Source: Sediminispirochaeta bajacaliforniensis DSM 16054
GTDB taxonomy: Bacteria; Spirochaetota; Spirochaetia; DSM-16054; Sediminispirochaetaceae
Length of the DNA stretch: 64,000 nucleotides
Reading direction: 5' to 3'
Assembly (NCBI RefSeq): GCF_000378205.1
Contig: NZ_KB899414.1
Coordinates: 62,001 to 126,000, forward strand
The translations under genes and the position numbers were made by a program. Below, piece after piece: positions 15,298 to 27,892 of this stretch (its first letter is position 1; every line of letters starts with the position of its first letter). Below the pieces are notes generated by a model that searched no databases, was not told the DNA's origin, and saw nothing but the letters and a program-made list of their open reading frames with translations.

Positions 15298-17103
15298 TCA
15301 AATTTCACGCTGCTTTTTTTTAACAATATTCTGTACCGCCTGAAGCACATCCGCAGCCCCATCCTGGCCGTTTCCGGCTATCTCTGCAATCTTGTCGACA
15401 CTTGCCTCGGCAATGGCCTCCAAGGAACCAAAAGTGCTGAGAAGCGCCGCGGCCCGCTTAGGTCCTATTCCGGGAATCGACTCGAGGGAAGAAAGCTTTA
15501 CCCCTTTCTTTCGAAGATGCTTATTGAACCCAGTTGCAAAACGATGACTTTCATCCCGGACAGCCTGGAGGACCCGCAGGGCCTCATTACCTTCGGGAAG
15601 TCGCACCGGTTCGCCGCTTCCCGGGAAGTGAATCTCTTCAAACTGCTTGGCAAGGCCAATCACCGCCACATCTTTCAGCCCCACGGCATTGAGGATGCCT
15701 CTGGCGGCGTTCACCTGCCCCTTTCCCCCGTCGATCAGCACCAGATCGGGGCGTTCAAGTCCCTCGTTGACCACCCTGGTATAACGGCGGGCAACAACCT
15801 CACGGATCGCCTCGTAATCGTCGATTTTCCCTTCGAGGGTTTTTATGTGAAAACGACGGTAACTGCCTTTATCGGGGTTTCCATTATAAAAAGATACCAT
15901 GGATGCAACGGGATATGTTCCGGAAAGCTGGGCGATGTCAAAGCCTTCGATCCGGCGAGGCAGCTTCTTCAAACCGAGAATTGTACGGAGCTCTTCCAGA
16001 CCGGGGATATTGGCCTCAGCCTTGAGCCGTTTTTCCAGATCGTGCAGAGCATTATCCAGCACCATACGCAAGATACGGGAATGTTTCCCCTCCTCGGGGA
16101 TGATGATGGAGACCTCTTTGTTCCGTTCATTCTTAAAAAAGGTGGCTACCAGCTTCGTGTCGAAGCCGCCGGAGGTAAAGACCGTTTCCGGAATATCCTT
16201 GAGTTCTCCGTAATAACGGAGAAAAAACTGAGAAAAGGCCTCATCTTCACTCGAAAGGGCCCGTCCGCGATAAAGATCCCGTCCAACTAATTTACCATCC
16301 CGCATGCGAAAGACGGCAAAAGAACAGAGTGAATCGTTCATGGCACAGGCAACATAGTCCCTGCTCTCTGAGCTGAAGTCGACCACTTCCTGGTCCTTGC
16401 CCACCGTTTCAACAGCGGAGATGGTATCCCGCAGTTCCGCTGCCTTTTCAAAATCGAGAAGGGAGGCAGCCTCCTCCATGCGCCGTCGGAGCCCGGCAAG
16501 GAGTTCTTCGGTCTCTCCCGAAAGCAGACGCCGCGCCCCATCCACATGGCGTAAATAACTCTCTCGATCGATTTTCCCGCAGCAGGGTGCAGAACAGCGG
16601 CCGATGTGGTAGTAGAGACAGGGGTGTTCACGCTTTTTGACCTTCCCTTTGCATTTGCGTAAAGGGAAAAGCCGTTCGATCAGATCAAGATAGACATCAA
16701 TATCCCCCACATTGGTGTAAGGGCCGAAGTATTCCGATCCATCCTGAATGATCCGGCGGGTACGAAAGATCCTGGGGAAGGGCTCTGCGGTAATACGAAT
16801 GACTGGATAGCTTTTTCCATCCTTCAGGTTGATGTTGTAGCGGGGCGTATGCTCTTTGATCAGGTTGTTCTCGAGCAGCAGAGCCTCATACTCATTGCCG
16901 GTGGTGATATACTCGATCCTGTCGATCCGATCGACGAGGACCCGTGTTTTGACATCCTTGTTTCCGGTAAAGTAGCTGGAGACCCGTTTTTTCAGGTTTT
17001 TCGCCTTGCCGATGTAGATAATCACACCGCCGGTGTCCCGCATAAGGTAGACACCGGGGCTTCCGGGAAAATCCCGCACCGTGGCTTTCAACGCTTCGTA
17101 CAC
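15298..17103 (-). CDS. uvrC: Excinuclease ABC subunit C
   Basis: The nucleotide-excision-repair nuclease that cuts both sides of a lesion. The 601-residue product has the N-terminal GIY-YIG domain (SPGVYLMRD, VIIYIGKAKNLKKRV), a UVR motif (LDFEKAAELRD), the C-terminal RNase-H-like nuclease part (DLVLIDGGKGQV) and a helix-hairpin-helix end (IPGIGPKRAAALL). The start is GTG at 17103, giving the normal family N-terminus VYEALKATVRDFPGSPGVY. Its ribosome site GGCGGGAG forms the 3' arm of the upstream terminator hairpin, so translation and transcription signals overlap. The frame runs on upstream but only into the gguB gene. Confidence 0.95.
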   Translation of the reverse strand: MYEALKATVRDFPGSPGVYLMRDTGGVIIYIGKAKNLKKRVSSYFTGNKDVKTRVLVDRIDRIEYITTGNEYEALLLENNLIKEHTPRYNINLKDGKSYPVIRITAEPFPRIFRTRRIIQDGSEYFGPYTNVGDIDVYLDLIERLFPLRKCKGKVKKREHPCLYYHIGRCSAPCCGKIDRESYLRHVDGARRLLSGETEELLAGLRRRMEEAASLLDFEKAAELRDTISAVETVGKDQEVVDFSSESRDYVACAMNDSLCSFAVFRMRDGKLVGRDLYRGRALSSEDEAFSQFFLRYYGELKDIPETVFTSGGFDTKLVATFFKNERNKEVSIIIPEEGKHSRILRMVLDNALHDLEKRLKAEANIPGLEELRTILGLKKLPRRIEGFDIAQLSGTYPVASMVSFYNGNPDKGSYRRFHIKTLEGKIDDYEAIREVVARRYTRVVNEGLERPDLVLIDGGKGQVNAARGILNAVGLKDVAVIGLAKQFEEIHFPGSGEPVRLPEGNEALRVLQAVRDESHRFATGFNKHLRKKGVKLSSLESIPGIGPKRAAALLSTFGSLEAIAEASVDKIAEIAGNGQDGAADVLQAVQNIVKKKQREI

Positions 17104-17140
17104 AAAAAAACTCCCGCCGAAAAGATACTTCCGACGGGAG
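17104..17140 (-). terminator. Intrinsic terminator of the chvE-ggu operon overlapping the uvrC ribosome site
   Basis: On the minus strand CTCCCGTCG (17132-17140) pairs with CGGCGGGAG (17111-17119) around a 12-base loop, nine pairs including one G-T, followed by seven T (17104-17110). The GTG of uvrC follows directly. The 3' arm doubles as the uvrC Shine-Dalgarno, so in any read-through transcript this site would be sequestered. Confidence 0.82.
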
Positions 17141-17147
17141 CCTATGA

Positions 17148-18344
17148 TCAACCCAAACCGGACTTTCTTCTCGTATAGATATCGTAGAAGACGGCAAGCA
17201 AGAGAACCAAAGCCTTCACGACATACTGCCAATCGGCCCCGATATTCATAAGAGACATACCGTTGTTGATGACACCCATAACCAGACCACCGGTAATGGC
17301 GCCGATGATGGTTCCGATACCGCCGGTAGCGGAAGCACCACCGATAAAGCAGGATGCAATGGCATCAAGCTCAAAGAGATTACCGGCCTGAGGCAGCGCC
17401 GAGTTCATGTATCCGGTAAAAACCAATCCGGAAAGACCGGTAAGGCCGCCCATGATAACATGGACAACGAAAGTAACTTGTTCCGAGTTGATGCCCGAAA
17501 GCTTTGCCGAACGAGCGTTACCACCGACTGCATAGATATATCGTCCGATTACGGTGTTTTTCGTGATAAAAACGAAGACGGCAATGACAATACCAAGCAC
17601 CACGGCAATCATGGGAATTCCCCGGTAATCGGCAAATTTATAAGAGAGAAGACCGATCATGGCGATGATGAAGGCCTGCTTCAAGGCAAAGTAACGCATG
17701 GGAAGAACATCAAATCCCCGTCGCAGCTTTGCCTTTCTTGCATGAAAACTGCTAAAGAGGAAAAGGATAATCAAAACCGCCCCGACAATCAGAGCAAGGG
17801 TATGGAGTCCTCCGATATTAAGTGATTCAATGGTAATCGAACCGGATGTGATACGCTTAAAGCCGTCGTCCCGCAAACTGATCGGGGTCACATTGGTGAT
17901 GATGTAGGTAAGCCCTCGGAACAGAAGCATGCCGGCCAGGGTCACGATAAAAGCAGGGATCCTGACATAGGCCACCCAAAAACCCTGCCAAACCCCTGCC
18001 ACAAGGCCCACTACAATAGTAAGAAAGATGGTAGGAATGATGGGGATTCCGGCATTATAGATCATTGCGCTGATAGCGCCGATAAAGGCACAAAGCGATC
18101 CGACCGAAAGATCTATATTTCCGATGATGATGACCAGCACCATGCCCACCGCAAGGATGAGGATGTAGCTGTTCTGAATGAATATGTTGGTGATATTCCG
18201 CGAGGTAAAGTTCACGCCCCCGGTAAGAATGGAAAATACTACAAAAATCAACCCGAGCATGATAAACATCGAGTAGTTTCTGATATTCTCCTTTGCAAGC
18301 TGCAGGAACGTCACTTGCCCGCTGCCGTTTGTTGCTTTCGCCAT
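17148..18344 (-). CDS. gguB: Multiple-monosaccharide ABC transporter permease (GguB/MmsB, XylH family)
   Basis: A 398-residue inner-membrane permease with roughly ten hydrophobic segments. The segment VGMVLVIIIGNIDLSVGSL is the signature region of XylH/RbsC-like permeases, and the length equals the longer GguB/XylH type rather than RbsC. It follows the ATPase gene by 16 bases and ends in an intrinsic terminator. The paired binding protein is ChvE-like, which favours the multiple-sugar (xylose, glucose, arabinose) importer rather than a xylose-only system. Confidence 0.92.
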   Translation of the reverse strand: MAKATNGSGQVTFLQLAKENIRNYSMFIMLGLIFVVFSILTGGVNFTSRNITNIFIQNSYILILAVGMVLVIIIGNIDLSVGSLCAFIGAISAMIYNAGIPIIPTIFLTIVVGLVAGVWQGFWVAYVRIPAFIVTLAGMLLFRGLTYIITNVTPISLRDDGFKRITSGSITIESLNIGGLHTLALIVGAVLIILFLFSSFHARKAKLRRGFDVLPMRYFALKQAFIIAMIGLLSYKFADYRGIPMIAVVLGIVIAVFVFITKNTVIGRYIYAVGGNARSAKLSGINSEQVTFVVHVIMGGLTGLSGLVFTGYMNSALPQAGNLFELDAIASCFIGGASATGGIGTIIGAITGGLVMGVINNGMSLMNIGADWQYVVKALVLLLAVFYDIYTRRKSGLG

Positions 18345-18360
18345 CTATTTACTCCTGAAA

Positions 18361-19884
18361 TCAGTTTTCAAGTGCCATATGCATAATCTTTTCCTGAGTC
18401 GCCTCGCTCCGGTCGAGTACCCCCTTTATCTTTCCCTCGTTCATTACATAGATCCGGTCCGCCATTCCGATTGCCTCCGGCATTTCGGAGGACACCATGA
18501 TGACGCTTTTGCCCTGGCTCGCCAGGGTATTTAGGATCGTGTAAATCTCATATTTGGCGCCTACATCGATGCCACGGGTCGGCTCATCCACAACAAAAAT
18601 TTCCGGATCGGCAAGCAGACAGCGACTGAGTACGACCTTCTGCTGGTTTCCTCCGCTTAGGTTCCGAACGAGCTGCATGATGGTCGGGGTCTTTATATTA
18701 AGCGATTTACGATAACGCTCGGCGGCATGGATCTCTTCAAAGTTATTGACGATGCCAAGCTTTGAAAGTTTATCCAGGCTTGAGTTGGAAATATTTGTCT
18801 TAACATCCTGAATCAGGATAAGCCCAAGATCCTTTCGATCTTCGGAAACATAACCGAGTCCATGCCGTATGGCCTCATGGGGAGAGGCGAAAGAGTGAGA
18901 CTCGCCGTTGATAAAAAGCTCCCCCTCGCAGGAAGAGCCGTAGGATTTTCCGAAAATGCTCATCATCAATTCGGTCCGGCCTGCACCCATAGGTCCGCAA
19001 AAGGCAAGGATTTCTCCCTTGCGCAGAAAAAATGAAGCGTTATCCACAACCTTCAGAGTGTGGTATTCAGGATGATAGACCGTCCAGTTTTTCACCTCGA
19101 ACACCACATCCCCAATATTGGGCGTCTTTGGGGGATACAGATGGGTCATATCCCGTCCAACCATATCTTTTATAATCATCGCTTTATCGACTTTTTCCTG
19201 CCTGGTGTCGTAGCTGCGGATCGATTTCCCATCGCGAAGAACGGTTATTGAATCGGCAATTTTCAGGACCTCATCGAGCTTATGGCTGATCATGATACAG
19301 GTAAGGCCACTCTTTTTCAGCTCAAGGATCAATTCCAAGAGTTTTTCACTTTCGTCGTCGTTGAGAGAGGAGGTCGGCTCGTCGAGAATCAGCAATTCGG
19401 TCCGCTTGGAAAGGGCCCGTGCGATTTCAACTAGTTGCTGTTTCCCTACTCCCATCTTGCTTACGATGGTTTCAGGTTTTTCTGTCAAACCGACTTTTTT
19501 CAAAAGGGGGGCCGATTCGACAAGCATCTGGTTCCAATCAACGATCCCCATTTTGGTTTTTGCATGACCTAAGAAGATATTTTCATAGATTGAAAGATAA
19601 GGACTGAGAGACAACTCCTGGTGGACTATGGTAAGCCCCGCCTTTTCACTGTCGCGGATACTTCGGAACGAGGTTTCCTTCCCATGCATGAAAACCGTTC
19701 CTTCGTAGTCACCCTTGGGGTATACCCCGCTGACCACCCCCATCAGGGTCGACTTACCGGCTCCATTTTCTCCGCAGAGGCAGTGGATCTCTCCCTTTCG
19801 GACGTTGAAGCTCACCTGGTCGAGGGCCCTGACTCCGGGAAAGTCCTTTGTAACATTTTGCACTTCGAGTATATATTCGCTCAC
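18361..19884 (-). CDS. gguA: Multiple-monosaccharide ABC transporter ATPase with two nucleotide-binding domains (GguA/MmsA)
   Basis: A 507-residue tandem ATPase of the RbsA/XylG class. The first domain has Walker A GENGAGKST and Walker B LLILDEPTSSL; the second has the degenerate P-loop GPMGAGRTE, signature LSGGNQQKV and Walker B IFVVDEPTRG, as usual for this class, where the second site is less active. It starts at GTG (19884) with a weak ribosome site, after an intercistronic hairpin that separates it from the chvE gene. Cotranscribed with the permease. Confidence 0.94.
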   Translation of the reverse strand: MSEYILEVQNVTKDFPGVRALDQVSFNVRKGEIHCLCGENGAGKSTLMGVVSGVYPKGDYEGTVFMHGKETSFRSIRDSEKAGLTIVHQELSLSPYLSIYENIFLGHAKTKMGIVDWNQMLVESAPLLKKVGLTEKPETIVSKMGVGKQQLVEIARALSKRTELLILDEPTSSLNDDESEKLLELILELKKSGLTCIMISHKLDEVLKIADSITVLRDGKSIRSYDTRQEKVDKAMIIKDMVGRDMTHLYPPKTPNIGDVVFEVKNWTVYHPEYHTLKVVDNASFFLRKGEILAFCGPMGAGRTELMMSIFGKSYGSSCEGELFINGESHSFASPHEAIRHGLGYVSEDRKDLGLILIQDVKTNISNSSLDKLSKLGIVNNFEEIHAAERYRKSLNIKTPTIMQLVRNLSGGNQQKVVLSRCLLADPEIFVVDEPTRGIDVGAKYEIYTILNTLASQGKSVIMVSSEMPEAIGMADRIYVMNEGKIKGVLDRSEATQEKIMHMALEN

Positions 19885-19959: not shown

Positions 19960-21057
19960 TTAATCGAGATCGCTTGCGGAATAGTAACCGCTGTCGATCA
20001 TGATTTCCTGATAGTTGTCCTTGGTAACATTGACCGGCTCAAGAAGGTAAGATTTTACAATCTTTTTGCCGGTATCGTAGGTCTCTTCATCAAGACGGGC
20101 GCCCTTGATGTTGGGGGTCTCACCTTTCAGAAGAGCATCGGCCAGCTCGATGGCGGCGGTTGCAAGGTTTCTGGTATCTTTAAATACGGTCATGTACTGT
20201 TTTCCATCCCGAATATACTGAATGGAGGCTATCTCTCCATCCTGACCGGTTACAACAGGAAGCTTGTCCACCGTGTTGTACTTGGCATCGGTCGAAAGCG
20301 CTTCGATGATGGCCCTGGCGAGGGTATCGTTGGGGGCAAGAACGGCATCAAGTACCACACCTTTGGCATCGTTGTTGAGGAGATTCTCCATCCTGGCCTT
20401 GGCAAGATCGGGCCTCCAGTTTTCGGTAGCAATTCTGGTAAAATCGGCATCGGAAGATGAAAGGGGAGCAGGTCCGACGATTTCAAGAGAGCCCTTTTCT
20501 ACGTAGGGGCGAAGAACCGACATAGCACCGTCGAAAAAGAAGTTTGCGTTGTTGTCGGTGGGAGACCCGGCAAAAAGGGTGATGTATTTCGGATTATCAC
20601 TGCTGACACTCCCAAGGCCAAGAGCCTTTTCGATGGCAGCGCCCTGAAACTGACCAACCTTGAAGTTATCAAAGGTGATGTAGTAGTCGTAGTCATCGGA
20701 ACCGGTAATAAGGCGGTCATATGCGATGGTGATGATGTCTTCCTTTCCAGCATCTTCGATAACCGAAACAACACCCTCGTTGACCGACCCGACGATGAGA
20801 AGTTTTGCACCCTTGGTGATAAAATCCTCGATTTGTTGATTCTGCTTGCTTTGGTCGGCATCGCCGTAGGCAACCTCTGCGGTGTACCCCTTGGCGGTAG
20901 CATCCTCAAGAAGTGCGGCACCATCTTTCTGCCACCGTTCAACATGGGTCTCCGGCATGGCAAGACCGATATCCAGCTTCTCTTTGGAACTGCAGGATGT
21001 AAACATGGTTACAGCAGCCACCAGAAGGACAGCAACACCAGCAACAATTCTTTTCAT
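19960..21057 (-). CDS. chvE: ChvE-like multiple-sugar-binding lipoprotein
   Basis: A 365-residue type-1 periplasmic binding protein with a lipoprotein signal (hydrophobic VAVLLVAAVTMF then FTSC, Cys about 21). Segments IGLAMPETHVERWQKDG, IAYDRLITGSDDYDYYITFDNF (quoted in part) and NWRPDLAKARMENLL match ChvE/XylF-type sugar receptors. A CGGAGGAG site precedes the ATG. It is the first gene of the importer operon; the 137-base gap upstream (21058-21194) should hold the operon promoter, perhaps controlled by the YesN-type regulator encoded just upstream. No clear -35/-10 was found there. Confidence 0.93.
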   Translation of the reverse strand: MKRIVAGVAVLLVAAVTMFTSCSSKEKLDIGLAMPETHVERWQKDGAALLEDATAKGYTAEVAYGDADQSKQNQQIEDFITKGAKLLIVGSVNEGVVSVIEDAGKEDIITIAYDRLITGSDDYDYYITFDNFKVGQFQGAAIEKALGLGSVSSDNPKYITLFAGSPTDNNANFFFDGAMSVLRPYVEKGSLEIVGPAPLSSSDADFTRIATENWRPDLAKARMENLLNNDAKGVVLDAVLAPNDTLARAIIEALSTDAKYNTVDKLPVVTGQDGEIASIQYIRDGKQYMTVFKDTRNLATAAIELADALLKGETPNIKGARLDEETYDTGKKIVKSYLLEPVNVTKDNYQEIMIDSGYYSASDLD

Positions 21058-21194
21058 TTAAACTCCTCCGAACATGAATGGTTTTCTTCAGTATGGAGGG
21101 GATATGAACATCTGCACACAGGAGAAATTTGTCGACTACTTCAGATATTTTACCTGTATCACTATGAAAACAACATAATAGGATAATTTTGTGG

Positions 21195-22253
21195 TCAAAA
21201 TTCTCCTTGTTGGTCGCGATAGACATCTTCAACCGAGTGAAAACCGTCCCGAATCACCGTTTCATCCATATTTTCCTTAAAAACAGCCCGCGGCATCTCA
21301 ACGAAAAAAGGGATTTTGACCCCGCTGTCGTTCTCGATCATTCGATCGGGATCGGGCATCTCGCCTTTCGCCAGTTCAACGGAAAGAGCTGCCGCCCTGC
21401 TCGCCAGTTTCTCGATCGGTTTGTAGACGGTCATGAGCTGTAGCCCCTCGACAACCCGTTGGCACGAGAGGAGATCCGCATCCTGGCCCACTACAGCCAC
21501 ATCTCCGGCCATGCGACGTTCGGCAAGAAGCTGTATCGCGGCATTTGCAATCTGATCATTTCCAGCCGAGATGGCATCGATATCGGTAGTCCGCTCAAGC
21601 ACCTCTCGGACCCTGACCGCGGCTTCGTCGCCACTCCACTGTTCAAGCCACAGCTCATCGACGATGTTGATCTGCCCCGCCTCGATATAGGGATCGATAA
21701 TCTCATGCAGCCCGTCATTCACTTCATAGCTGTTGTTATCCCGTATCGAGCCGTTGACAATCAGATAGTTTCCCCGAGGTACCTTTGCCGTCAAAGCCTT
21801 TCCGAAAAGACGCCCGACCTCGCGGTTGTCGAAAGAGATATAGGCGTTCACCGGTACCCCCATGATCAGGCGATCGTAGGCCAACACCGGGATACGACGA
21901 TCTCGCACTTCCTTAATGGCCCCCGCCAGCAAAGAGGTATCGTGGGCGAGAACCACCAGGATATCGATATCCTTTTCAAGCAAATAGTGAATTTGATCTA
22001 TCTGGGCCTTTGCACCGCCGGCCGAGAGTTGAAGTATCACTTCTGCTCCAAGGTTTTTTGCCGCTGTCGTAAAAATTTTGATGTCCTTATTCCACCGTTC
22101 GATGATGAAGGTATCAGTAGCAATGGAAAAGCCGATGGTTACCTTGCCATCATCTTTTTTCCCGCTCTCTTTCTCCCGCCCTCCCCAGCAGGATGATAAG
22201 AGAATGAGGATGGCAAACATACAAACTGATTGAAATCTAACGTTCTTCATCAT
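21195..22253 (-). CDS. XylF-like sugar-binding lipoprotein, probably sensory
   Basis: A 352-residue binding protein with a lipoprotein signal (SVCMFAILILLSSC). Conserved sugar-pocket segments include IATDTFIIERWNKD, VLAYDRLIMGVPVNAYISFDN (in part) and GNDQIANAAIQLL, close to xylose-binding proteins. The ATG at 22253 overlaps the regulator gene by 17 bases behind AGGAGC, so it belongs to the sensing operon and not to the transporter operon. This matches the known XylFII-LytS/YesN arrangement of clostridia, where a second xylose-binding protein signals to the kinase. A sensor role is inferred; supply of sugar to the importer is the alternative. Confidence 0.88.
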   Translation of the reverse strand: MMKNVRFQSVCMFAILILLSSCWGGREKESGKKDDGKVTIGFSIATDTFIIERWNKDIKIFTTAAKNLGAEVILQLSAGGAKAQIDQIHYLLEKDIDILVVLAHDTSLLAGAIKEVRDRRIPVLAYDRLIMGVPVNAYISFDNREVGRLFGKALTAKVPRGNYLIVNGSIRDNNSYEVNDGLHEIIDPYIEAGQINIVDELWLEQWSGDEAAVRVREVLERTTDIDAISAGNDQIANAAIQLLAERRMAGDVAVVGQDADLLSCQRVVEGLQLMTVYKPIEKLASRAAALSVELAKGEMPDPDRMIENDSGVKIPFFVEMPRAVFKENMDETVIRDGFHSVEDVYRDQQGEF

Positions 22254-23751
22254 CTTTTTGCTCCTGAAGAAAGCTGGTGGGGGGGATCCCTTTCTGTTTC
22301 CGAAAAATCCGACTGAAGTAGTTGGGATCCTGATACCCCACCGCATAGGCTATTTCTTTGATGGGTAGTCTGTTTTCCAGCAAAAGTTCCTCAGCGACAC
22401 GCATCCGAACAGAAGTAAGATAGTCGATAAACGAGGCTTCGAGATGCTCCGAAAAGAGGCGGCTGAGATAGCTTGGGGACACGCTGCAAAAGGAAGCGAC
22501 ATCGGAAAGCTGTAGGGGTTTCTCGTAGTTTCCCTGAATATAATAGACCGCTCGGGCAAGAACAGACGGAAGCTGCCGTTCCCGGCAGGGATTCTCAGCT
22601 TCAATTACAGCTCGAAGCGCTCGTCCCGCCCAGGCATCCCATTCCTCCTTTGTCGATAGAGCCATGATATCTCTGGCCGGTTCAAAGGGAAACGCCGGCG
22701 GTTGGTCTCCCCCGAGAGAACGGACAAGGTCATCAAGCAGGAGGGTAAAAAAGGCAACCATACGAGCTTTGGCAACATGGAAAGGAGAGGAACGAAATAC
22801 ATTTTCGCTATATCGGAAAAAAGAAGGATAAACATCATCCAAACCATGAGCCCTGGAAATTTGCCTTCGAAGTTCGAAGACCACCTCCCAATCCTCACCG
22901 ACCCCCTGCTCTTCATCATCTTCCGATACATACTGTAAGGCCTCACCGCAAGAACGAAAGAAAGAATCGAAGGGGTGGGGATTTCCCAAGCCGGTGGTGA
23001 CTCGTACTTCTTGGGGAACCGAACGCTTTACAATGGTGTCGAGAACGGAAAGAAGTCGCTCGGTCTCCAGATCACCGGGAAGAAAAACCAGTAGCTTTCC
23101 CAGATAGTCGGTGGAAAGCTGTTGATATTTGAGGGATATTTGCCTCACGATCTCCTCGTGCAAACGGCTGCGCTCTTTCACCTCCACCCCGGTAAGTTTG
23201 ATGAGGTACATCGAAGCGAGATCGCTATCGATGGAAAAAAGTTGCCGATATCGATCCCACTCCTTGCGGTGCAGCCCCTTCCAGGTCGCCAGCAAGAGAA
23301 AATTTTTCTCTTCCCAAACCCTGGAGTTCATACTTCCTTTTACATTGTCCAGCCTGAGGGCATTACGTTCCCGTTCCAGGTCAAGATGACGGCGGGCCTG
23401 CTCCAGGGTATCAAGAAATTTTTTCCGGGAGATCGGTTTAACAAGGTAATCAAAAACTCCGAGGGGAATTGCCTTTTTTGCAAGATCAAAACGCTCGTAC
23501 GCGGTAGAAAGCACAAACAACATGCCGGGATAGCTCCGCTGTAGCTCCTTTATGGTCTCCAGACCGTCGATGCCCGGCATGCCGATATCCATGAATACCA
23601 AATCGGGATGATTCTGGTGTGCCGAAGAGATGGCTTCGAATCCCGAATGAGCCTTTCCCGATACGGTAAAACCATCTGCAAGATGTTCGACCATATACGA
23701 AAAGCTATTGAGAACCGGTTCCTCATCATCGACGATCAGAACTTTATACAC
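22237..23751 (-). CDS. YesN-type response regulator with AraC DNA-binding domain
   Basis: A 504-residue regulator: receiver domain at residues 1-120 (phosphoacceptor Asp55 in LVFMDIGMPG, and the switch segment LGVFDYLVKPIS), a long middle linker, and a C-terminal AraC-type pair of HTH motifs (LSDVASFCSVSPSYLSRLF, IKEIAYAVGYQDPNYFSRIF in parts). It overlaps the kinase gene by about 16 bases and the downstream lipoprotein gene by 17. Likely target: the chvE-gguAB operon 3' of this locus (inference from position). Confidence 0.93.
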   Translation of the reverse strand: MYKVLIVDDEEPVLNSFSYMVEHLADGFTVSGKAHSGFEAISSAHQNHPDLVFMDIGMPGIDGLETIKELQRSYPGMLFVLSTAYERFDLAKKAIPLGVFDYLVKPISRKKFLDTLEQARRHLDLERERNALRLDNVKGSMNSRVWEEKNFLLLATWKGLHRKEWDRYRQLFSIDSDLASMYLIKLTGVEVKERSRLHEEIVRQISLKYQQLSTDYLGKLLVFLPGDLETERLLSVLDTIVKRSVPQEVRVTTGLGNPHPFDSFFRSCGEALQYVSEDDEEQGVGEDWEVVFELRRQISRAHGLDDVYPSFFRYSENVFRSSPFHVAKARMVAFFTLLLDDLVRSLGGDQPPAFPFEPARDIMALSTKEEWDAWAGRALRAVIEAENPCRERQLPSVLARAVYYIQGNYEKPLQLSDVASFCSVSPSYLSRLFSEHLEASFIDYLTSVRMRVAEELLLENRLPIKEIAYAVGYQDPNYFSRIFRKQKGIPPTSFLQEQKDDEER

Positions 23752-25217
23752 GGTTCCTCCTCCATGTCGATGGATATGACGACCTCTGTTCCACGATCAG
23801 GCCCCGACTGTATGGTGACAATATCCGGATTATCGGGATAGAAGAAATAGAGTCGCTGAATGACATTCTCCAGTCCCATCACCTTGGAAGTATGTTCCTG
23901 ATCCCAGGAATAACGTTTGAGAAGAGAATCCATCATCTCCTTTGCGATACCGATTCCATCATCACGGACCGACAGCATAATCATCTTTCCCTCTTTCCAT
24001 ACCTTCACCGAAATGCTCCCCTTTCGATGAACCCCTTTAAAGGCGTGTATAACCGAATTCTCTACGAGAGGTTGCAGAATCAGGGCTGGGACCGAACAGG
24101 AATCGAGGAGAGGTTCCGGGACATCAAGCCTGCAGTCAAGGGTTTTCGGAAATCGGATCTTGAGAATGTAAAAATAGGAACGCAGTCCTTCAATTTCATG
24201 CCGAAGCGGAACGATCAACTTACGCTCGCGAATGTTATGGCGGAAGAAGGTTGCCAGATGTTCCATAAATTCGGCAGTCTTTTCGGCATCTTCCACAATA
24301 GCAAGCTGAACACCGGTATTGATCGTGTTAAAAAGAAAATGGGGATTCATCTGAGCCTGCATGGTATAGAGCTCCATACGCTTGAGCAGCTGTTCCATCT
24401 TCAAATTTCGCAGCTTTTCGTTCATGTATCCCTGTTCTATACTTTTCTGACGCTGAATTTCGGCAATATTGTGCCGAATATCATTCTTCATATCATTAAA
24501 GGCCTCGACTACCGCCTCTACTTCGCTTACGGCAGAGATATGAATATCCTCGATCTCGAAGTTCCCGGCCGACAGTTCCCCGGCCATCTGGGCAAGGCGG
24601 TGCATCGGATCGGTAACCTTGTTGATGGAAAAGAGCATCCAGGTTAAAGAAAAGAGAAAGGAAAAGACAATCATCAGAAGGTTCCGCAGCTGTAATTCCC
24701 GCGAGACATCGATAACCGACTCGTAAACAGCCAACTGCTTCCGTATTCCGGAAAGGCTAATGGTATCGATCCTCGTCGTCAGGTAGGCATTCAGATTTTT
24801 CATCTCTTCATATTTACGTGTATACTCGCCGATGGACCTTCCCCGCTTAAAGGCGATGGATTCTTCCACAAGGTCAAGATAGTTTCTCAGCATAAAGAAA
24901 ATTTCCCGTTCGGCAAGCTGATATGCATCCGTCGTCACCGGGATTTCCTTTGGTATCATCTGGCGCAGTGTCTGTTCCCTGATAAGGAGTTCAGCCAATG
25001 CCTTGGAAGAACGGCTAGAAAGATAGGAGAGAATAGGGGTTCTGATTCGGGAAATTTCCAGCTGCAATTTCTGATAAAACTGCTCTTTACGAAATTGGGT
25101 GTCGACAATTTCCTGAAGTTCCATGGCGCTGAAAAAGACATACGACATGGAAAAAACAATGGTAACAAGGCCCAGAATGATATTGAGAAAGAGTTGCATC
25201 CGGAGAGAACGTTTCAT
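23736..25217 (-). CDS. LytS/YesM-type sensor histidine kinase
   Basis: A 493-residue membrane kinase: N-terminal membrane segment (about 10-32), an extracytoplasmic helical region, a second membrane segment (about 183-205), a HAMP region (VTDPMHRLAQMAGEL), the His_kinase motif MNPHFLFNTIN, and an ATPase domain with LQPLVENSVIHAF and DDGIGI. The gene overlaps the upstream binding protein gene by four bases and the regulator downstream. The small periplasmic part and the adjacent binding proteins suggest that it senses a liganded sugar-binding protein. Confidence 0.93.
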   Translation of the reverse strand: MKRSLRMQLFLNIILGLVTIVFSMSYVFFSAMELQEIVDTQFRKEQFYQKLQLEISRIRTPILSYLSSRSSKALAELLIREQTLRQMIPKEIPVTTDAYQLAEREIFFMLRNYLDLVEESIAFKRGRSIGEYTRKYEEMKNLNAYLTTRIDTISLSGIRKQLAVYESVIDVSRELQLRNLLMIVFSFLFSLTWMLFSINKVTDPMHRLAQMAGELSAGNFEIEDIHISAVSEVEAVVEAFNDMKNDIRHNIAEIQRQKSIEQGYMNEKLRNLKMEQLLKRMELYTMQAQMNPHFLFNTINTGVQLAIVEDAEKTAEFMEHLATFFRHNIRERKLIVPLRHEIEGLRSYFYILKIRFPKTLDCRLDVPEPLLDSCSVPALILQPLVENSVIHAFKGVHRKGSISVKVWKEGKMIMLSVRDDGIGIAKEMMDSLLKRYSWDQEHTSKVMGLENVIQRLYFFYPDNPDIVTIQSGPDRGTEVVISIDMEEEPCIKF

Positions 25218-26197
25218 TTTCCCTCCTCCACTTTCCGAAAGGCACTCACCTCGCTTTGCGTGACGATGGTGACACCCGTATCGACATAGCCGGCAGAGTG
25301 TCCGTTTCTCTTCAGCTCGAACAATACCTCGATTGCGTGATATCCGATGCTTCGGGGATTCGTCACAACGGTTCCTGCAAGAATGCCCTTCTCCACATAG
25401 TCGAGGATGGTCTCTTCTGCCCCAAAACCGATCAGTTGAACCGTTCCGACAAGGTTCATATCGATAAGTACCTGCGTCGCCGCAAGTGTATCCCTGGCGT
25501 CGGTAAATACGATGGTGGTAATCCCCGGTTCACTACGAAGCATCCGATAGGTCAGAGCCTCCGCATCCAGGGGATTCAGATTGGTCATTTTTGCAATAGG
25601 GGGAGACTCCAGCCTCTTGCCGAGAGCGGAGGTAATTCCCAAACCGACAAGATCCTTTTCCGCATAGATACCGGGAGATTTTTCACTGTAGACAACTGCT
25701 ATCTGAAGAGGATCGCTGCTTTGCAACGCTATCAATTCCCCGATCTTTCGTCCGATATCAAAATTATTCGTGCCGACAAAGGGCCATGGGGCATCATCGG
25801 AAATGGTATGTTCGACGAGAACCACTGAAATATTGTTGGCACTCAGCTGCTCAAGGATCGTCCGCACCTGTTGCTCCTCAATACTCGGATAGATTACCGC
25901 TCCGTCGATTCCTGAAAAATGGGCCATCGCGAGGTCGGGAGAGCCATAGCCGACAGGGTGAAAGGAAAGTGCACAGTTATATTCCGTAGCAGCGGTTCGG
26001 GCCCCCTGGGCCACCTGATGAAAAAAGCTGTAGGACTCCTCGGGCAGAAAAAGAGCAAAGTGATACTGAGCACTTTCACCTGCACTTTCGTCGCTGGTAA
26101 TTCGTGCAAGATCGACGATCGTGTGGAGCGAGAGGACAAAAAACGTAAGAAACAGGAAACCGAATAATGCCATCGGCAACCTTGCAAAACGATTCAT
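25214..26197 (-). CDS. Membrane-anchored periplasmic sugar-binding protein (sensor component)
   Basis: A 327-residue protein with an N-terminal membrane segment (LPMALFGFLFLTFFVLSL) lacking an obvious cleavage site or lipobox, followed by a RbsB/LacI-like type-1 binding fold (IDGAVIYPS, NNISVVLVEHT, GTNNFDIGRKIGELI, TIVFTDARDTLAATQVL). Anchoring by an uncleaved helix suits a signalling receptor rather than a transport receptor. It is the first gene of the four-gene sensing operon, overlapping the kinase start (ATGA). Ligand unknown; a monosaccharide is likely. Confidence 0.87.
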   Translation of the reverse strand: MNRFARLPMALFGFLFLTFFVLSLHTIVDLARITSDESAGESAQYHFALFLPEESYSFFHQVAQGARTAATEYNCALSFHPVGYGSPDLAMAHFSGIDGAVIYPSIEEQQVRTILEQLSANNISVVLVEHTISDDAPWPFVGTNNFDIGRKIGELIALQSSDPLQIAVVYSEKSPGIYAEKDLVGLGITSALGKRLESPPIAKMTNLNPLDAEALTYRMLRSEPGITTIVFTDARDTLAATQVLIDMNLVGTVQLIGFGAEETILDYVEKGILAGTVVTNPRSIGYHAIEVLFELKRNGHSAGYVDTGVTIVTQSEVSAFRKVEEGK

Positions 26198-26320: not shown

Positions 26321-27892
26321 GTGAAAACAAGAGACGTTCTATTGAACCAAATAGTGAGAATAGTATTTCTCACCGCAGTATGGGCTACCCTCCCCTTCCC
26401 CCTTATCGCCTCGGAAGTATTGATAGGCCGTTCCGCAGGGTGGGCTTCCTTACACCTTTTATCAGGTACGACACTGAGGGTCCCTTCGGACAGTGGGGAA
26501 ACAGTTATCGGTGGCAACCGGATTAGCTTTGAAGAGAAATCTCAACAGGTTCTGATGCTCGACGAAGATTCTTATAGGCCGGATACAAATACCGACCTAC
26601 TCCTTCATTTCGATAGAAAAAACGAGGTAAACGGCGGCTACTATCGTCTTATGGAAGACGGGGCCCATTATCCCCGGACAGAACGAAAATTCGGGCCGGG
26701 AGCGGCACTATTCCGCAAGACGGAAAATGAGATAGCGTTGGTGCCTGAAGCCTCTTCACTCCTGTACCCTGATACTCTTTGGAGCGACTTTACCATAGAG
26801 TTCTGGCTCAGGCCCCAATACCTTGAACAGGGAGAAACGATACTGCTGTGGCAGAGCAGCCGTCAGATCGAAAAGGAAATAGCGGCCCAGGAGATCCAGG
26901 TGTATGTCTCCGGCAGGAGCCTCACATGGCGCTTTGACAACATCTTTCTTCCTCCGGGAAATGGTCCGCTTTCTATAGAGATCGAGGGAAGAACACCTCT
27001 GGTACCGGAACAATGGCACCACCACAGCCTCTGTTTTAACGCAAAAACGGGAATGCTCCTTTATCAAGTCGATGGCAAGGATGAGGCAATTCGCTACATA
27101 ACGGCTACAGGGCAGGAGGGATCATCGGTATTTCTTCCCTACATAGGCGGTCCGGAAGCCGAGCCTTTACGCCTGGGAACGGGTTATACCGGCTTTCTCG
27201 ATGAACTGAGGATCAGCAAGTCCCTTATTGAAAAATCACATCTAAAACCCTATCCGCTGAAACGTGGAACGGCAGAGACCATTCCCATCGATTTGGGCGG
27301 TAAACACGCCAGGGTGGTATCCATCGAAGCAGACAGCAGCATCGAAGGGATGAGCAGGATAGGATACTTCTACCGACAAAGTGATACGAAAAGCGATTAT
27401 GAAGAACTTGAAGGGGCATGGAAACCATTTGTTCCGGGTATGCCATTCCCGGTAGAAAGCAAGGGACGTTTTCTTCAACTTCGCTTTGAATTCTTTCCCG
27501 ACAGTACGGGAAGCAAAAGTCCAATGCTTTCGGAAGTACACATCTTGTATGAACAAGACCCTCCACCAGTCCCCCCCTCACTCATCAATGTTGTTCCGGA
27601 AGACGGATCTCTGACAATAAGCTGGAATGCCGTATCCGCACACGATCTCTCCGGCTATCTCCTTTTGTACGGAACGGCCCCGGATGATTATCGGGGTAGT
27701 TCCGCACATGAGGGTATCAGCCCCATTAATGTAGGGGAAAATACCAGTATAACACTCACGGGCCTGGAAAACGGAACCCTCTATTTTTTTAGAATCGCAG
27801 CCTTCGATAACGACGATCCCCAGAGACCCGGCCCCTTAAGCCGGGAAGTGTACGGACGTCCAACACAAAACAACACGCAAGGAAGACCATAA
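26321..27892 (+). CDS. Exported protein with LamG-like lectin fold and fibronectin type III domain
   Basis: A 523-residue protein with a signal peptide (VRIVFLTAVWATLPFPLIAS). Residues about 90-310 look like a LamG/concanavalin-type sandwich (DLLLHFDRKNEV, DFTIEFWLRPQ, TPLVPEQWHHHSLCFNAKTG, YTGFLDELRISK in parts). Residues about 415-515 form a fibronectin type III domain (PPSLINVVPEDGSLTISWNAV, LTGLENGTLYFFRIAAFDNDDP in parts). It is probably in the periplasm or on the outer surface and may bind glycans or protein. The start is GTG. The TPR gene follows after two bases, so the four genes to 32125 form one operon. Confidence 0.8.
   Translation: MKTRDVLLNQIVRIVFLTAVWATLPFPLIASEVLIGRSAGWASLHLLSGTTLRVPSDSGETVIGGNRISFEEKSQQVLMLDEDSYRPDTNTDLLLHFDRKNEVNGGYYRLMEDGAHYPRTERKFGPGAALFRKTENEIALVPEASSLLYPDTLWSDFTIEFWLRPQYLEQGETILLWQSSRQIEKEIAAQEIQVYVSGRSLTWRFDNIFLPPGNGPLSIEIEGRTPLVPEQWHHHSLCFNAKTGMLLYQVDGKDEAIRYITATGQEGSSVFLPYIGGPEAEPLRLGTGYTGFLDELRISKSLIEKSHLKPYPLKRGTAETIPIDLGGKHARVVSIEADSSIEGMSRIGYFYRQSDTKSDYEELEGAWKPFVPGMPFPVESKGRFLQLRFEFFPDSTGSKSPMLSEVHILYEQDPPPVPPSLINVVPEDGSLTISWNAVSAHDLSGYLLLYGTAPDDYRGSSAHEGISPINVGENTSITLTGLENGTLYFFRIAAFDNDDPQRPGPLSREVYGRPTQNNTQGRP

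Follow-up and report, generated by a model that had tools for sequence, protein, structure and literature searches.

XylF as a possible sugar-reading component of a four-component sensor operon upstream of chvE-gguAB in Sediminispirochaeta bajacaliforniensis

The XylFII-LytS/YesN sensor of Clostridium beijerinckii, which accompanies the XylFGH proteins, was reportedly described by Sun in 2015 and by Li in 2017, and is taken here from reviews and from later papers that cite this work. A locus of this type was located in two genomes (G094 and G104) with 99% identity to the XylFII sequence from the PDB, and the published type of order, six genes here termed the hexad, runs XylFII-LytS-YesN, a gap of 295 or 293 bp (L187, L188), and XylF-XylG-XylH. 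The subject of this study is a related operon of the spirochaete Sediminispirochaeta bajacaliforniensis DSM 16054, contained in a stretch of 64,000 nucleotides, hereafter the window (G000:C9:62001-126000, from a draft genome of 4.57 Mb; a relative of the same genus, G001, has 4.65 Mb in a single contig). In this operon, a histidine kinase (HK) of the LytS/YesM type and a response regulator (RR) of the YesN type stand between two sugar-binding proteins, SBP1 and XylF; the four genes are termed the quartet (SBP1-HK-RR-XylF), the first three the trio, and the quartet together with ChvE, GguA, and GguB the heptad. Two other described sensors bear on this layout. The LevQRST system of Streptococcus mutans, encoded by the operon levTSRQ, has the order binding protein, kinase, regulator, binding protein; both binding proteins are required for full activation and both affect sugar specificity, fructose and mannose are the inducers, a fructanase and a phosphotransferase system are the targets, and signalling is regarded by its authors as the sole function of both binding proteins (PMC3043104). 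In CuaDSR and CuaABC of Ruminiclostridium cellulolyticum, CuaD is presented as the sole sensor and CuaA as part of the transporter, with cellobiose as the ligand (PMC10384115).

The quartet is read here as a four-component sugar sensor, in which XylF would be the reader and SBP1 an adaptor, together with a YesN-controlled chvE-gguAB importer, and we give this reading a probability slightly under one half (about 0.48). It draws on sequence comparison, namely of gene order and overlaps, the XylF clade, linkage, correlated distances, the residues of the sugar pockets, operator repeats, and terminators of Firmicutes. In the mechanism that we infer, the lipid-anchored XylF, with its intact D-xylose pocket, would be the sugar-reading part, and SBP1, tethered by an N-terminal membrane segment, would most likely act as an adaptor that keeps XylF bound to HK at its helical periplasmic domain. 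Once loaded with xylose, XylF would alter the complex, HK would phosphorylate RR, and RR would bind two repeats between xylF and chvE, by which chvE-gguAB would be switched on.

The genes of the locus follow one another on the minus strand in the order SBP1, HK, RR, XylF, chvE, gguA, and gguB, with overlaps of 4 nt (SBP1/HK), 16 nt (HK/RR), and 17 nt (RR/XylF). The first-pass annotation had described an overlapping operon just upstream of chvE-gguAB with a LytS/YesM kinase, a YesN/AraC regulator, and a XylF-like lipoprotein, and all of this is borne out by open reading frames (ORFs), Pfam, and solved relatives, with the adjustments that the interval 19960-26197 already includes chvE and that the XylF ORF, listed from 22346, has its lipoprotein start at ATG 22253 (or 22250), within the final RR codons. 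The membrane-anchored RbsB-like protein of the same annotation retains its anchoring and loses its label, since it is better described as XylFII/AraP-like (6gq0, 5xsj/5xss/5xsd). Close SBP1s (E 1e-70 or better) occur in 11 of 60 relative genomes, and the seven-gene order was read at the loci of G001, G033, G008, G020, G006, G052, and G045; exceptions are a locus without ChvE beside XylF (G028), one in short frames (G051), and one ended by the contig edge (G004). Distant versions of the gene group were seen at L071, L072, and L073, and at L070 as far as the contig end.

When 84,980 species genomes were searched with the XylF alignment and the best 80 loci were kept, a choice by similarity that is biased towards the sensor-linked clade, the loci came from Spirochaetota and Bacillota, plus one metagenome-assembled genome (MAG) filed as Holophagaceae. 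Among the 74 loci with more than 0.7 kb upstream, RR lies within 400 bp of XylF in 69, the others being L098 and L102, which carry an insert, L105 and L111, in which none of the trio was seen, and L135, an ordinary XylFGH operon. The inserts between RR and XylF measure about 7 kb (L102:2873-9824) and about 0.9 kb (L098:4804-5661), and in both loci XylF is retained, with the trio upstream of the displaced XylF in L098 and HK and RR upstream in L102. The full trio was found in 59 of the 62 loci with more than 4.4 kb upstream. Conversely, HK at E 1e-70 or better is present in 44 of 394 class genomes (46 rows), and for 40 of these 46 rows a XylF follows less than 10 kb further along the same strand, at 1.46-1.68 kb in 39 cases and at 6.9 kb in G568. 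The six unlinked rows are G051, where XylF is full of stops, G346, G282, and G381, where HK is close to a contig end as judged by position, and the second rows of G008 and G440, with 28-32% identity. Of the best 41 XylF rows, 39 are HK-linked, and one of the 33 weaker rows, because the HK threshold excludes distant kinases. The recurrence of the quartet order across Spirochaetota and Bacillota indicates that it is not due to chance. Some loci depart from the usual arrangement: in the MAG filed as Holophagaceae (L116, Acidobacteriota) the heptad branches among spirochaetes, by transfer or mis-binning; a Lachnospiraceae MAG has two consecutive SBP1-like genes before the kinase (L149:933-3025); and in L069 (G051, contig C183) HK and SBP1 are intact and XylF, ChvE, GguA, and GguB are in many short frames, by decay or assembly error.

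XylF evolves with the sensor genes and not with the importer, as far as distances and trees indicate. Distances were compared over 44 loci with all seven genes at set length limits, leaving out L061, L070, L072, L068, L135, L113, L097, and loci missing any gene, and they fall into two blocks, SBP1, HK, RR, and XylF (r 0.80-0.92) and ChvE, GguA, and GguB (0.88-0.92), with 0.32-0.52 between blocks. XylF correlates with HK at 0.92, RR at 0.85, and SBP1 at 0.81, and with ChvE at 0.46, GguA at 0.50, and GguB at 0.51. Given GguA, the partial correlation of XylF with HK is 0.90, whereas given HK those of XylF with ChvE, GguA, and GguB are 0.19, 0.08, and 0.21. The same holds within 22 close spirochaetes (XylF-HK 0.83, XylF-GguA 0.37) and 16 Firmicutes (0.93 and 0.48), and the difference stays at 0.36-0.51 when any one locus is left out. 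Between the window and L063, the distances are 0.37 for XylF, 0.28 for HK, and 1.26 for ChvE, whereas between the window and L065 they are 0.42 for XylF and 0.28 for ChvE, which suggests that the importer was exchanged beneath a steady sensor. In a quick tree of XylF, a branch with a support of 93 (100 without L145) separates the 88 sensor-linked XylFs from the transport XylFs of E. coli, A. succinogenes, Tuberibacillus, and the C. beijerinckii type; in a quick tree of HK, 44 heptad HKs and 15 hexad HKs separate at one branch with a support of 100.

The best solved relatives of the window XylF are xylose-binding proteins, 4ywh and 3m9w of E. coli (E 6e-69), so that it is of the E. coli D-xylose type. 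The D-xylose contacts, which we take to be R16, W17, D90, R91, D135, N137, W169, N196, D197, D222, and K242, were located on the 3m9w alignment and are kept in 88 of 88 XylFs, except for N196, which is kept in 86. A cysteine, C22, is invariant among 12 spirochaete XylFs; the lipobox pattern matched in 46 of 88, a pattern too strict or starts wrongly placed, and clade-wide lipid anchoring is not claimed. XylF-type proteins with no transporter in the stretch lie beside a chemoreceptor in two loci of Bacilli, where a gene with HAMP and MCP domains directly precedes XylF on the minus strand (L220:7182-8891, L221:7136-8848); these could be xylose chemotaxis pairs, and XylF beside chemoreceptors without an importer makes signalling by XylF on its own plausible. 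MCP genes are also close to the locus in L145, L123, and L189.

SBP1 has as its nearest solved relative the binding protein 6gq0 (E 1e-15), which is presumably part of a three-component system, followed by the C. beijerinckii XylFII structures 5xsj, 5xss, and 5xsd (E 4e-13), and its anchor, according to anchor statistics of 70 relatives, is a single N-terminal hydrophobic segment with no lipobox. A literature search found no published lists of pocket residues for XylF or XylFII. The sugar contacts of the ribose-binding protein RbsB, given as N13, F15, F16, D89, R90, R141, N190, D215, and Q235 (PMC3676853, PMC2630998), were carried over to XylFII and SBP1 by our own alignment, together with H22 of XylFII, which contacts the sugar O4 (PMC9601137). 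These pocket residues are nearly always kept in the 17 sequences comprising the hexad XylFIIs and 6gq0. At seven positions the hexad residue is present in 16-17 of these 17 and in 1-12 of the 70 heptad SBP1s (3 for H22, 12 for N13, 6 for F15, where it is Y, 4 for D89, 3 for R141, 11 for D215, and 1 for Q235); the residue at F16, W, recurs in 25 of the 70. The window SBP1 is changed at the equivalents of H22, N13, F15, F16, D89, R141, D215, and Q235, and keeps D at that of N190. On this alignment the sugar pocket of SBP1 appears degenerate, most sugar contacts being lost relative to C. beijerinckii XylFII. The ratio of SBP1 to HK distances is 1.33-1.36 in heptads and 0.75-0.91 in hexads.

The stretch between xylF and chvE contains a 17-bp element, GTCAaAaaatTCCTgTt, common to 27 spirochaete intergenic stretches, with a log-likelihood of 147.1 against 48.7-56.2 in six shuffles, which preserved base content only; the two best copies are 59-62 bp apart in 16 of the 27. 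The window, itself one of the 27 training sequences, has one such pair (21193, 21133) and, at the set thresholds, no other in its 64 kb, and five shuffles had none. Upstream of SBP1, 25 of 26 loci lack the element and one scored above 10, and in L102, outside the training set, the pair stands just before the displaced chvE (18120). YesN would be the natural candidate to bind this putative operator. The spirochaete model gave 7.0 on Firmicutes stretches versus 2.3 on shuffled ones, with a maximum of 3.7 in 50. In 13 of 21 Firmicutes loci, xylF is succeeded by a hairpin resembling a terminator, against a mean of 0.2 in shuffled sequence, which suggests that there xylF closes the sensor unit. A motif search of the Firmicutes intergenic stretches returned the T-run of the terminator and no operator, and was discarded.

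Several observations weigh against the sensor reading. The distance correlations could come from co-inheritance in one operon without any contact, the trio is missing upstream of XylF in the stretch examined at L111 and L105, the operator could not be clearly made out in 8 loci of distant spirochaetes, and the terminator, which is not shown in the window, was found in just 3 of the 27 loci of spirochaetes. The structure prediction of SBP1 was unusable (mean predicted local distance difference test score, pLDDT, of 50), so that its pocket state comes from alignment alone. Columns conserved in hexads are kept in SBP1 at a mean of 0.40 outside the pocket and 0.20 within it, which makes the decay of SBP1 general and heavier in the pocket, only about twofold beyond background. 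Moreover, the Bacilli quartets L145, L215, L216, and L218 retain R, D, and Q at the SBP1 equivalents of R141, D215, and Q235, with those of D89 and N190 changed, so that pocket loss is not always coupled to XylF, and a degenerate SBP1 in every quartet, as once considered, was dropped. Three of these came from a further 20 rows, sampled from the 97 XylF rows in 398 Bacilli-class genomes, which gave 10 loci with usable SBP1: six hexads that mostly retain the pocket, the quartet L208, which lost it, and L215, L216, and L218. As L145 is the earliest branch among quartets in the XylF tree, the Bacilli quartets may be an intermediate in which XylF had been gained and SBP1 still had its pocket; alternatively, the quartet may have arisen twice.

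It is possible that XylF is an ordinary transport protein, a second one feeding xylose to GguAB and made at a basal level with the sensor to allow entry before induction, with SBP1 as the sole sensor as in C. beijerinckii. XylF is of the same type as transport XylFs and has an intact pocket, a ChvE or GguA gene of the CUT2 transporter lies within 1 kb in 56 of the 73 loci with more than 1.2 kb downstream, and 13 of 15 genomes reached through selected loci contain a full-length GguB-like permease somewhere. However, in the 17 remaining loci the importer is upstream of SBP1 (L117, L131, L139, L145), further downstream (L093, L102), or, in 11, not seen within the stretches examined, some of them short, and XylF keeps its place next to SBP1-HK-RR in loci whose transporter lies upstream, is displaced, or is missing. 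The quartet is also present in two draft genomes, one with no full-length GguB-like permease (G061, genome of L125; best 44.7 bits) and one with only a weaker one (G063; 126 bits). Gene linkage speaks against XylF serving transport only, and the partial correlations given HK and the Firmicutes terminators between xylF and chvE point the same way, so that this alternative is considered unlikely.

The first-pass annotation had suggested that the operon may integrate two sugars or that one binding protein may compete with the other, and neither suggestion is favoured, as XylF keeps its contacts and SBP1 few of them, for which one reader and one adaptor are a better fit. Two sensors with different ligands, whose signals HK would integrate, would suit the presence of both proteins in the sensor operon, and SBP1 might indeed bind a different ligand: its fold motifs are kept, D stands at the N190 equivalent in 61 of 70, aromatics are still found at F15 and F16, and some residues of the pocket region are invariant within close spirochaetes, all of which fits a new ligand, and in LevQRST both binding proteins affect specificity. 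Nevertheless, the R141 and Q235 positions of SBP1 hold many residues, mostly non-polar or variable, and SBP1 changes faster than HK, which is closer to relaxed constraint than to a new conserved pocket; integration of two ligands is considered improbable. Still far less credible is that XylF is a buffer or competitor that captures xylose and sets the threshold at which SBP1-HK fires, since SBP1 would have to bind the same sugar, against which its pocket speaks, although equal co-expression from the overlapping operon would fix the ratio of XylF to SBP1.

The features of the locus are collected in the table. All three binding proteins match Pfam Peripla_BP_4, and in NCBIfam the permease is above the cut-off for GguB (471.5 bits, cut-off 450), whereas the best matches of the other two importer proteins are below theirs (GguA 764.5 bits, cut-off 810; ChvE 370 bits, cut-off 460). 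In HK, the helical periplasmic domain (about residues 35-175) is flanked by two membrane segments and followed by HAMP, His_kinase, and HATPase_c. Its structure prediction (mf6b7cc01a175) had a mean pLDDT of 75.1 and a predicted template modelling score of 0.39, and a search with this model gave kinase domains among the 50 matches listed, and not the LytS sensor domain 5xsd. A xylose isomerase is encoded elsewhere in the source genome (664.6 bits, cut-off 533.25). On the minus strand uvrC (15298-17232) follows gguB, the ORFs overlapping; in L149 uvrC is directly after xylF, as if the importer had been lost there or gained elsewhere. On the plus strand, a gene whose product has domains of the LamG-like and fibronectin type III kinds (26321-27892) runs divergently from SBP1 and shares an intergenic stretch with it.

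Table 1. Genes and putative regulatory sites of the sensor and importer locus, in window positions.
Feature	Position	Strand	Evidence
SBP1, membrane-anchored XylFII/AraP-like binding protein	25214..26197	-	ORF; Peripla_BP_4 1e-23; XylFII/6gq0 relatives
HK, LytS/YesM-type histidine kinase	23736..25217	-	ORF; Pfam HAMP, His_kinase, HATPase_c
RR, YesN-type response regulator, receiver and AraC-type DNA-binding domain, GTG start	22237..23751	-	ORF; Pfam
XylF, E. coli-type D-xylose-binding lipoprotein, sensor-linked clade	21195..22253	-	ORF; structure relatives; clade
ChvE-type sugar-binding lipoprotein of transporter	19960..21057	-	ORF; Peripla_BP_4; NCBIfam ChvE
GguA-type sugar ABC ATPase	18361..19884	-	NCBIfam GguA
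GguB-type sugar permease	17148..18344	-	NCBIfam GguB
Putative operator site 1, CACAAAATTATCCTATT, just past xylF stop	21177..21193	-	motif search
Putative operator site 2, GACAAATTTCTCCTGTG, oriented like site 1 and 60 bp from it	21117..21133	-	motif search

A tentative history would make the quartet an ancient sensor across Spirochaetota and Bacillota, formed when a XylFII-LytS/YesN operon acquired a xylose-binding lipoprotein. The newcomer would have become the sugar reader, and SBP1 would then have lost its pocket and come to serve as an adaptor linking XylF to the kinase, with one binding protein docked on another. If true, the specificity of a sensor would have been changed by adding a separate reader and not by remaking its own pocket, genes annotated as xylose transport proteins could be sensors, and the quartet would be a test case for periplasmic binding protein signalling via kinases in phyla with little-studied sugar sensing.

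No earlier description of the quartet was found in the open-access literature, subscription papers being largely outside the search; what seems to be new is the combination with a XylFII-type SBP1, the decay of the SBP1 pocket, and the spread over two phyla, whereas a two-receptor layout is already known in kind from LevQRST. In both LevQRST and the window, kinase and regulator lie between two ATP-binding cassette (ABC)-type sugar-binding proteins in one operon, a likeness in gene layout. However, up to five membrane segments are predicted for LevS, of which little would lie outside the cell, and no ABC transporter lies near LevQRST, whereas chvE-gguAB adjoins the window quartet. CuaDSR/CuaABC is similar in having a sensor binding protein by the kinase and regulator plus a second binding protein for transport. 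The kinase domain of HK has its nearest solved structures in GanS of Geobacillus stearothermophilus (6swk, 6swj). With E. coli-type transport XylF the window XylF shares the D-xylose pocket, but it does not appear to evolve with the importer. The C. beijerinckii locus has, as the first-pass annotation held, a single sensory binding protein, besides a transport XylF with xylGH, and in six clostridial loci (L194-L199) the trio precedes a ChvE-type protein and GguAB, one importer binding protein again. The window resembles the C. beijerinckii system in the anchored XylFII-like protein, the LytS kinase, and the YesN regulator, in the same order and beside a CUT2 importer. It differs in that its sensor operon holds two binding proteins that differ in type and in anchoring, as that annotation had also proposed and as clade, linkage, and distances agree; in that XylF overlaps yesN by 17 nt, instead of being 293-295 bp off and joined to xylGH; in that the importer is served by ChvE, there being no separate ChvE among the six clostridial genes; in that heptad kinases do not group with hexad kinases in the quick tree; and in that XylFII keeps the sugar contacts that the window SBP1 seems to have lost.

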